Part shown: positions 26,621 through 35,366 of the stretch, in pieces
How positions within the stretch are numbered: position 1 is the first letter of the stretch
Layout of the letters: each line of letters starts with the position of its first letter
NCBI GenBank assembly: GCA_013396655.1
Contig: WBMV01003157.1
Location: 101,081-165,080, forward strand
DNA: 64,000 bases
Reading direction: 5' to 3'
Source: Campylorhamphus procurvoides
Lineage: Eukaryota > Chordata > Aves > Passeriformes > Dendrocolaptidae
Translations under genes and position numbers: made by a program
The notes under the pieces: model-generated
Told to the model about the DNA's origin: nothing
Seen by the model: only the letters and a program-made list of their open reading frames with translations
The model's database searches: none

Positions 26621-29600
26621 ACAAGGATCTCTAGCTAGAAATGAAAGAGTCAGGATCATTCCGTTTAACTCTGAAGATGGAGAAGAAGAACAGGAAAGTA
26701 ACTATGAAGAGCTAGGAAAACTGTTAATAGAGGAATTTTTAGAAAAAAATCATAAAAGTAGAAGTTGGCATGAGAAAAATGTTAAAAAGATACAAACTCA
26801 CTCAAAAAGAGAAAGATCAAGGTGCTGCCAAAGTGTGTGTGTGGAGTCAGGGTCTGTAGATGTCCCTAGGTATCCTCAGGAATATGATACAATAGATAGA
26901 AGAAGGAAAAAGAAGCTGCGATACAATTTTGGAGGGAGAGAACAATTAAGCCTGCAAAGTAATGGAAGTCTGCAGTTTCCTGAGGAGAAGACAGTTTATT
27001 TCAATGGTTTGGCAACTAGGTCTGAACCCATTGATGACTTCCCAGTATATGACAGATCTGGAAAATATACCAGTAGCTCAGAGAGTAAGGAACGGTTGCC
27101 TGCTTATCCAATCCTGCGTCCATACAAAAATGGCTTAATGGTTAAAAGTGGCAAGTTGCCCAACAAGCAGGCAATGAACCATGAGGACTCACTTCACCTC
27201 AGTAACTCTGAAGACCTGAAGCACATAGGGATGCCAGAGAACACTTTTGTGCCTGTGGATGTCCTCGAGGAATTTGACAGCAGTGCTTCTGATGAGTTCC
27301 AGTATTCACCTGTGTCAGATGATGAAATGGAGGAACTGGCTACACTTTCAAAAACATGGTGTGATTCTGACATTAGCCATTTGAGAAACTTAACAGATAA
27401 CTGCCCTGCAAATACAGACTCACAGTTAAAGGCTAGCTCTGATAAAAAACATAGAACTAAAGAGGGCAAGCGTGTTCATCCTATGCAAGACTTAACATTG
27501 TCTCCTGTGGAAGAACCCAGCGAGGAGTACATAGACACAATGGATGAACTTCAGTGTCTGGTAGAATCAGTATCAGAATACTTGGCTGAAAAGGAGGAAG
27601 AAATCAGCAAATTTGGTACATTGACAGAAACCAGAAAAAATATTGAGAGCGTGCCACTGAAGCAGGGTAGTGCTGATAATTCAGTAGAAGCTAAAAAGTC
27701 TGAACAGACCAAACAGTCTGCTGCAGAGGAGAGTACTAAAGGCAAATCTGAGTCTCTTCCAGACTTGTCAGGTGTCAAAAATACAGTAAATTCTCTGTTC
27801 AGCTCTTTTACAGAAAAGGTGGGGTCAAGCACAAAGCAGCTCACAGCATCTGTTGAAAAACTTGTTTCTTCCACTCCAGAGAATACAGAAAACAAAAACT
27901 CATCAGAAGGTGGAATCTTGAGTGTATTTTCTAGTAAGCCTAAAAATGAGAGTTCATCTTCTGGAGGGGCAGCAGATAATAAAACTGACTCCAAGTTCTC
28001 CATTCAGTCTTTGCTACCATCCCAGCTAAGTGGTGATAAGGGAGCCCAGAACATAAACTCCAACAAGCCAGAAACCACTGAGATGGACAGTAAGGCTTCC
28101 ACACCACATCACCCCCAGCAATCACAAGGAACTGCTGCCGATGGCCAACAGAACCAACATTCAGTTATGAATTCCGTTCTAGGCATGTTTAATCCTTTAA
28201 AGATCTTTTCTGAGAAGGAAGTGCCAAATTCAGAAGTCATAAAGGAAGAGCACACCAAGGAGGACAGCCATGCTGCGAAAGCTGATGAGGGAAACAGGAG
28301 GGAAACACCATCTGGGCAGACGTCAGCCAGGACCAGCAGCATTGTTCCGGAGGTACGGAAAAGTGAGACTGGAAGTGAGGCAGAGGTAAACGCAAATAGC
28401 ACTTCTGTGTCTTCCATCTTTGGCAGGCTCACAAACTCAGTCAGTTCCTTCAGCTTGAAAGCCAATTTTGATGGTCTCTTGGCTCCCAAGCAGCAGGATG
28501 TGCCACAGAAGCAATCAGATTTGCATCCTGTTACAAAACAGCCAGGTGCCACTGTGAAAGAGGGTGTGCCTGCTGCCAGGGAGCAGCCTCCTGCAAATCA
28601 CTCAGGGGATCAGCATAGTGCAGGTCGTGGACTGCCAGAAAAGCCAAACAGAGATAATGTGGAACCCAACTCACAGCCTCAAGGTCAGGGTACAGCATCT
28701 GAGAGCTTTTTCAGCCCACTCAAAAAGTCTTTCAGTCAGTTGTTGCTTCCTTCTACAGAACAAGGGCAGAAAGAAAGTGCTCCTGGGCATTTGAAAGGCC
28801 CTAAGTCTGAGGAGGATATAAGACAAAATAGTTCATCAAAGGAGGAGCAGTCATTTCCTTTCACTGGGAAACTTCCTTTTTTCAGTGGGCTGGGTTTTTC
28901 AGGAAAGCAGGAACAGAAAAATGAGAAGGGAGGCTTTATTCCGTCATTATTTAGATTTTCATCTGCAGAAAATCTAGCACCTGCACAGGACCAAAGAAGT
29001 CATCAGAGTTCTAGCAGCAGTTCTTTACCTGGAGACAGAAACAGGAATTTAGAAAATGTTGTTTCATTAAAATCTAGCTCAGTTCCAAATTTATCAGACC
29101 ATAAGGAGGAACTTTTACAAAGAAAAAACATGAATAAAGAAGGCTTACCTAGTGACCAGGTAAATAGAGAAAAACACCAGGGGAGTGCCTCTGCTACCTT
29201 TAAAGCTGCAGAAGAGCAGCAGAGAACAAAGAGTACTCACGAAGAAGCTAAAAATGTAAAAGGGGAACTGGTGAGGGAAGGACTAAGTGCATCAAACTTA
29301 AATGACAGCTTAGTTGAACCCACCTCTTCAGCCAGAGGGCCAGAAGCGGCAAGTGCAGATGATAAGGAGAAGAAGCACACACCGGGTTTTCTTTCTGGGT
29401 TTCTTCGTATTTCTTCCAATGAAAACACAGCCAATAACCAAGACCTAACTGCTAAAAGTGAGGGTGATGGCCAGAAAAGCACTTCTCCTGGATTATTTTC
29501 TGGTTTATTGAGGTTTGCTTCAAATGAAAACTTGTCTGAATCTAAGCAAGAGAAGGTGAAATCAAACTCTCTGGGCTTCATGAAGCTCTTTGATAGAGGT

Positions 29601-35366: not shown

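Follow-up and report, generated by a model that had tools for sequence, protein, structure and literature searches.

Single optional exons of several kilobases that code for disordered arms are known from neuronal ankyrin-G and ankyrin-B, and long N-terminal extensions place Munc13 proteins at the active zone in C. elegans (UNC-13L) and Drosophila (Unc13A). Here we describe an optional 8.7-kb exon of UNC13B, the gene of Munc13-2, in a window of 64,000 nucleotides (nt) of the bird Campylorhamphus procurvoides (contig WBMV01003157.1, positions 101,081 to 165,080). The ankyrin exons resemble it in type but differ in gene and motifs, and the two Munc13 extensions resemble it as long additions to a Munc13, no homology being implied.

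The closest counterpart in design is Piccolino (papers are cited throughout for single passages). This very large presynaptic chain binds RIBEYE through multiple PxDLS-like motifs (PMC6539712), and the PXDLS motifs of Bassoon and Piccolino contact the B-domain of RIBEYE (PMC11242772). It has an amphipathic lipid packing sensor (ALPS) motif that binds vesicle-like liposomes (PMC13394108), and it arises by intron retention (PMC3735604). The UNC13B arm likewise carries PxDLS-type motifs and ALPS-like stretches, and a read-through form would arise when its GC donor is left unspliced. The giant arm differs in that it comes from a cassette exon of a Munc13 gene and has predicted binding partners; the likeness drawn here is one of design. 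The passages on Munc13-2 list only two splice variants from this same gene, ubMunc13-2 and bMunc13-2, and a passage of PMC7660176 names ubMunc13-2 as the Munc13 of photoreceptor and bipolar ribbons. The giant form would be additional to these; the C2A-containing form that is left when the giant exon is skipped is taken to be ubMunc13-2.

All coordinates refer to the window, in which the giant exon and all UNC13B exons lie on the plus strand. A scan for open reading frames (ORFs) identified an open frame of 2,968 codons at 26460-35366 (+). A chance ORF was rejected, as no stop-free run longer than 212 codons arose when 64-kb windows were simulated 40 times; read in any of its five other frames, the exon contains 74 to 311 stops. 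The exon and its ends are as follows, with a slash at the exon boundary.

26621..35344, plus strand: giant cassette exon, 8,724 nt or 2,908 codons, phase 2 at both ends (sequence and tblastn)
26870..26872, plus strand: exon start at an alternative acceptor, cctag/GTATCC, the matching place being used by mammalian models
35345..35350, plus strand: GC 5' splice site gctagt (AAAAG/gctagt), from the sequence and the spliced model
35345..35366, plus strand: read-through tail ending in KRLVTNEA and a stop codon, read from the sequence
35365..35370, plus strand: AATAAA overlapping the stop, a candidate poly(A) signal and the sole AATAAA/ATTAAA in 35301-36900

The acceptor at 26621 reads cttag/ACA. 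Two bases are left by the upstream donors at 22217 and at 24705, and one is supplied at 26621 and likewise at 36857. The cassette is symmetric (phase 2-2), and the frame is therefore kept when the exon is skipped. The donor was placed after AAAAG at 35344 because the spliced eagle model P0004 reads NEK/SPADSSRYGSS across this junction. In the unspliced exon, seven residues (RLVTNEA) are added past the GC donor before the stop that ends at 35366. An arm entered at the 26870 acceptor would begin 83 codons later. Three products of the gene are predicted: one with the exon skipped, one in which C2A, the arm and C1/MUN form a chain of about 4,500 residues, and one in which C2A and the arm are followed by a stop seven residues on.

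Two further features of this region were noted. AT skew is positive in 26001-36000 and zero or negative in the rest of the window (2-kb bins). An in-frame 84-bp tandem duplication at 33291-33458 inside the giant exon repeats 28 residues with a 94% match; eagle model P0004 has a single copy there, and identity among birds dips at this place.

To follow the exon beyond the window, 130 proteins were fetched from protein-database searches with the arm and classed by rough matches to marker strings. The main search gave the best 120 of 312 matches, with many near-duplicates and about 20 macaque models; the database favours intact frames, and broken copies in nature are not countable from its matches. 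C2A, arm and MUN occur together in 57/130 proteins. Another 12 have C2A and the arm without MUN, seven with the read-through tail (P0001, P0002, P0019, P0036, P0040, P0088 and P0129) and five ending otherwise. The arm is found alone in 53 (many of them single-ORF calls) and with MUN but without the C2A marker in five, and three fit no class. The phases, the splice sites and these proteins put the giant exon in frame with the UNC13B exons that flank it, as expected of a UNC13B isoform. Since both forms occur in public databases, the exon is already known to annotation, although no description of it was found among the matches listed from the open-access literature. A reading as a terminal exon only was rejected, as 66/130 proteins continue into the next UNC13B exon.

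Among the 69 proteins with C2A and arm, 17 enter the arm as at 26621: 13 without and three with the preceding 42-codon exon by string match, and P0026 as judged from its junction. The junction from 22217 to 26621 has its counterpart in, for example, P0001, P0007, P0017 and P0019, and that from 24705 to 26621 in P0004 and P0023, with frog P0128 at the matching place. Entry at the site matching 26870 is seen in 46 models (mammals, bird P0032 and turtle P0033), and six are unclassed, including P0028, which enters close by.

An earlier note on this DNA had claimed one 8.7-kb open frame, encoding roughly 2,900 residues as a single optional in-frame exon of UNC13B, with an acceptor phase that fits the preceding exons and with the junctions 22217-26621 and 24705-26621. 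The length of the frame, the symmetric cassette, the phases and the public models bear this out, and its figure of about 1,600 residues for the canonical protein agrees with the 1,650 that eagle model P0004 has outside the arm. The extent it gave, 26621-35366, is right at the start but not at the end, as 35366 belongs to the read-through stop; entry at 26621 is likewise one of two main routes, the 26870-type site being the more frequent in the models. That note mentioned neither the GC donor nor a read-through isoform lacking C1/MUN, nor the presence of the exon in public models.

The 3' end of the arm was compared across the same proteins by string matching. The next canonical exon follows the arm in 66/130, an R-[PL]-V read-on in 53/130 and neither in 11/130. 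Spliced entries have S-P at the junction in 61 of 66 cases and K-S-P in 54, while P0011, P0029, P0032, P0038 and P0092 join differently. In the read-on entries the junction Arg is followed by Pro in 33 of 53 and by Leu in the other 20 (19 birds and P0091). The Pro group comprises turtles, lizards, snakes, marsupials, placental tails save P0091, the axolotl P0053 and the eel Synaphobranchus P0129, which reads EKRPVVA. A Pro codon (CCN) after AG/G requires C as the second intron base, that is, GC. Leu by itself is ambiguous as to the donor, but the Leu codon of the window is CTA, which gives a GC donor there. Provided that the junction is the same in all, as the models indicate, we infer a GC donor at the 3' junction of the arm from eel to mammals. 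The read-through tail ends in NEA in all 19 bird read-through entries and in TNEA in 16 of them, and its length varies among mammals.

Conservation was profiled over 26 homologues, and two alignments, A1 with 36 and A2 with 47 homologues, were picked for spread from the 130. With gaps counted as mismatches, mean identity to the arm of the window is 79% for seven birds but 29% for ten mammals. Protein identity is 87% to the manakin Pseudopipra and the antbird Willisornis and 85% to the tyrant Pitangus, which puts the window closest to suboscine passerines. Compared with the eagle, the arm is 81% identical, and the linker exons starting at 24580 and 36857 are 81 and 82% identical, respectively. 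Conserved islands stand out in 25-residue bins at arm residues 301-325, 376-425, parts of 1251-1450, 1701-1750, 1951-2025, 2301-2325 and 2676-2750. The first of these is the most conserved:

27522..27596, plus strand: most conserved block, EEYIDTMDELQCLVESVSEYLAEKE, arm residues 301-325, presumed helix, 88% identity to ten mammals

The fishes Synaphobranchus (P0129) and Aldrovandia (P0130), which we take to be elopomorphs, share this block and other parts of the arm with the window, and the exon is therefore older than the split between ray-finned fishes and tetrapods. Most of the arm is fast-evolving and, by prediction, disordered.

Around an aromatic island, the arm contains three PxD[LF]S motifs:

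30408..30422, plus strand: PxDLS motif 1, PMDLS (residue 1263), found as a sequence motif
30843..30857, plus strand: PxDLS motif 2, PLDLS (residue 1408), found as a sequence motif
30951..30965, plus strand: PxDLS-like motif 3, PLDFS (residue 1444), found as a sequence motif

All three stand at the same spacing in 117 of 120 listed homologues, which include many near-duplicates and are not independent; the exceptions are the axolotl (motif 1 is PLMDLS), Sapajus P0094 (motif 2 lost) and P0111 (motif 3 lost). In alignment A1 (37 rows including the window), 11 of the 12 core motif columns are invariant as against 26 of 588 elsewhere (Fisher p 1e-13), and as against 19 of 178 columns of the island region alone (Fisher p 3e-9). 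Two PxDLS motifs arise in less than 1% of 2,000 shuffles, and the eagle protein outside the arm has no PxD[LF]S motif. The eel has PVDLS at the second and PVDFT at the third place, and the frog has PLDFS and QSLDLS, the latter perhaps at the third place. Like binders of CtBP and RIBEYE, the arm thus carries conserved PxDLS motifs in a disordered region (two PxDLS and PLDFS). These conserved motifs look like predicted docking sites and point to CtBP proteins as partners.

Seven stretches in the arm passed a filter for ALPS-like helices (18 residues; moment, few charges, rich in Ser, Thr and Gly), with thresholds of our own set after Drin and HeliQuest:

27762..27815, plus strand: ALPS-like stretch DLSGVKNTVNSLFSSFTE
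28398..28451, plus strand: ALPS-like stretch STSVSSIFGRLTNSVSSF
31269..31322, plus strand: ALPS-like stretch PVNKVSSLFSALGGLIGK
31758..31811, plus strand: ALPS-like stretch LFKSALKLFSLGEDSPSS
31947..32000, plus strand: ALPS-like stretch KEISGISSLFGSIGDLFK
33519..33572, plus strand: ALPS-like stretch KSVLDSSVEMFSSFMTKM
34764..34817, plus strand: ALPS-like stretch LMSSFKKLSSSLFEGGSE

These seven do not overlap and compare with 1.8 +/- 1.2 (maximum 5) in 100 shuffles. As a control, the ALPS peptide published for Piccolino has five 18-residue frames, of which at least three pass the filter; the C-terminal 1,342 residues of the canonical eagle protein contain one such stretch. Twelve homologues have 6 to 10 each, and seven of the 12 exceed all 20 of their own shuffles. 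Because the excess over shuffles is uneven across homologues, the ALPS-like helices are kept as a lead only.

The arm is rich in Ser (14%), Glu (10%) and Lys (8%), and its composition falls with disordered chains relative to the charge-hydropathy boundary. AlphaFold2 gave a mean pLDDT (predicted local distance difference test) of 31 over 600 residues and of 37 over 206 residues. Residues 1126-1450 hold 10 of the 13 Trp and 26 of the 39 Tyr of the arm and include the following element:

30504..30665, plus strand: aromatic island, for which AlphaFold2 weakly predicts a helix plus four strands over the WWPSEDGDCGYYMYSDSQYVYSLLTDPTGQYVYVC stretch (ten-residue mean pLDDT at most 57)

No Pfam family was found in the arm; a search with separate pieces of it gave a single match, to an oxidoreductase family and below threshold (E 0.04), which was dismissed. 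The island as an OCRE or other known domain was rejected, there being no Pfam family and no significant PDB sequence match. The earlier note had described a disordered chain of biased composition with an aromatic island and no known catalytic domain, all of which agrees with these results. The multivalent scaffold that it suggested is strengthened by the conservation of the PxD[LF]S motifs and, to a lesser degree, by the ALPS-like helices, and is a plausible role deduced from sequence.

Taken together, we propose with a probability of roughly 0.45 that the exon encodes a multivalent disordered arm that tethers Munc13-2 to CtBP or RIBEYE and to vesicle membrane, the GC donor setting the forms. 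Inclusion of the exon would part C2A and the C-terminal priming module by a very long, disordered and multivalent tether. The three PxD[LF]S motifs around the aromatic island would dock into the peptide cleft of CtBP1 or CtBP2 and so attach the protein to RIBEYE of synaptic ribbons, or to CtBP1 with Bassoon and Piccolo at ordinary active zones; CtBP1 occurs with these two proteins at synapses. The repeated Phe/Ser-rich amphipathic stretches may insert into the highly curved vesicle membrane, and the priming module, being part of this chain, would be kept at the ribbon or scaffold next to its vesicles. The read-through form would act purely as a scaffold and would stand to the full chain as Piccolino does to Piccolo, and how much of each form a cell type makes may depend on the weak-looking GC donor. 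A narrower version is rather doubtful: a vertebrate Munc13 tethered to ribbons, with docking on RIBEYE, several ALPS helices, MUN at ribbon vesicles, a Piccolino-like read-through form and a splice choice kept since the split between ray-finned fishes and tetrapods. A photoreceptor-specific alternative exon of Unc13b is lost in the Msi1 knockout, its identity being unstated in the passage of PMC7948980; a 6-nt Unc13b microexon is cited in PMC12287369, and this one and the 36-nt microexon of the window could be that exon equally well as the giant exon. UNC13B is named in a table of PMC1794582 and appears with translation changes in PMC10510282, the passages concerned containing nothing on the giant exon.

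Several points weigh against the proposed tether. The motif class was recognised after the sequence had been seen, and the tests gauge its conservation, not its discovery. Motif 3 departs from the PxDLS consensus, and a looser ELM pattern for CtBP matches motifs 1 and 2 only, a count within the range of its shuffles (mean 0.8, maximum 4). In the ground squirrel (P0121) and elephant shrew (P0126) models the motif region is missing wholly or in part, through either a deletion or an error of the model. For the ALPS-like stretches, a shuffle reached or passed the count in P0004, P0019, P0050, P0056 and P0115. Mouse and rat were not named among the best 120 of the 312 arm matches, some of which carry no species name. 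The database proteins mostly look like automatic models, and the letters of the splice sites come from the window alone, the use of the exon being read from gene models. As for function, release was not acutely affected by a PxDLS-type peptide that binds RIBEYE, inner hair cells reportedly have no Munc13s (both from passages of PMC7699581), and loss of Munc13-2 in mouse photoreceptors lowers the b-wave by only about 30% (passage of the review PMC11536687).

A giant isoform with a non-synaptic role, acting in secretory, Golgi or nuclear pathways of CtBP1/BARS where cells express the ubiquitous form, with the ALPS-like helices serving Golgi-type membranes, appears unlikely. The conserved PxD[LF]S motifs and ALPS-like stretches would suit any setting that joins CtBP to membranes, ALPS motifs tether Golgi vesicles (passage of PMC13394108), and the sequence evidence does not itself indicate neuronal expression; yet one alternative exon of Unc13b, maybe another one, is photoreceptor-specific (PMC7948980). 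More improbable still is that the arm acts mainly as a spacer or condensate former through its length, disorder and sticky Phe motifs, the PxD[LF]S motifs being kept for another partner. Such a role would fit the low AlphaFold2 confidence, the fast evolution of most of the arm and its repeated F-rich patches, whereas the conserved islands at 301-325, 1301-1350, 1426-1450 and 2301-2325 suggest specific contacts.

To a similarly small degree, we consider that the read-through form could be the main product, the exon being a composite terminal exon that yields C2A and arm in about 3,200 residues, with the chain of 4,500 residues rare or spurious. The GC donor, the stop seven residues on with AATAAA over it, the seven proteins that consist of C2A and arm with the read-through tail and the uniform tail end in birds speak for this, but C2A, arm and MUN are united in 57 of the 130 proteins, the importance of splicing is suggested by the shared S-P junction and by conservation of the GC context, and mammalian tails differ in length. 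To read the frame as a pseudoexon or as a long ORF without use seems hardly credible: although the case for the exon is built from sequence and gene models, the frame is long beyond chance, phases and splice sites are matched, the GC context is conserved and protein-level conservation to the eel contradicts it.

The arm was also considered in relation to bMunc13-2, which has 1,985 residues. Length-restricted searches (688-2187 and 756-2406 residues) gave 6 and 5 matches to large parts of the arm, among which bMunc13-2, UNC13A and UNC13C were not named; these searches depend on 5-residue words in common and covered about 8,000 scored candidates, and rodent bMunc13-2 was not directly compared. 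These matches give no support to an origin of the bMunc13-2 N-terminus from the arm.

The other UNC13B exons of the window were mapped by tblastn with eagle UNC13B protein P0004, and their splice sites were read from the sequence:

997..1067, plus strand: exon of the C2A-linker region, IPEEEARYWTRKLEQINSLGDEE
4089..4146, plus strand: exon YSFQEEVQKKPLPSAASQC
15847..15882, plus strand: optional 36-nt microexon, NWSYFGWGEQL (from the sequence)
21995..22217, plus strand: exon with phase-2 donor CATCAG/gtgggt
24580..24705, plus strand: optional 42-codon exon with phase-2 donor GGATAG/gtgggt
36857..37183, plus strand: exon after the giant exon, beginning SPAGSSRYGSSCN, with phase-2 acceptor
39046..39136, plus strand: exon after that, beyond which no exon of the eagle protein was mapped in the window

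The microexon string SYFGW is present in 6 of the 130 fetched proteins (five birds and one lizard). No further exon of the eagle UNC13B protein was mapped in the approximately 25 kb past 39136 (39137-64000), a region that may be the site of the bMunc13-2 alternative promoter. It contains an ORF at 47972-48442 on the minus strand, which we take to be a remnant of a CR1 LINE.

It is an open question how ribbon synapses prime vesicles that have not yet left the ribbon, and at these synapses Munc13-2 seems surprisingly expendable. If the proposed tether is real, an overlooked isoform almost threefold larger than the protein lacking the arm would link Munc13-2 to RIBEYE and to vesicles, and the constructs and antibodies in use may have missed it. 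Even without the RIBEYE link, a large optional coding region of 2,900 residues with a conserved GC donor is present in a gene of synaptic vesicle priming, and this exon is ancient.

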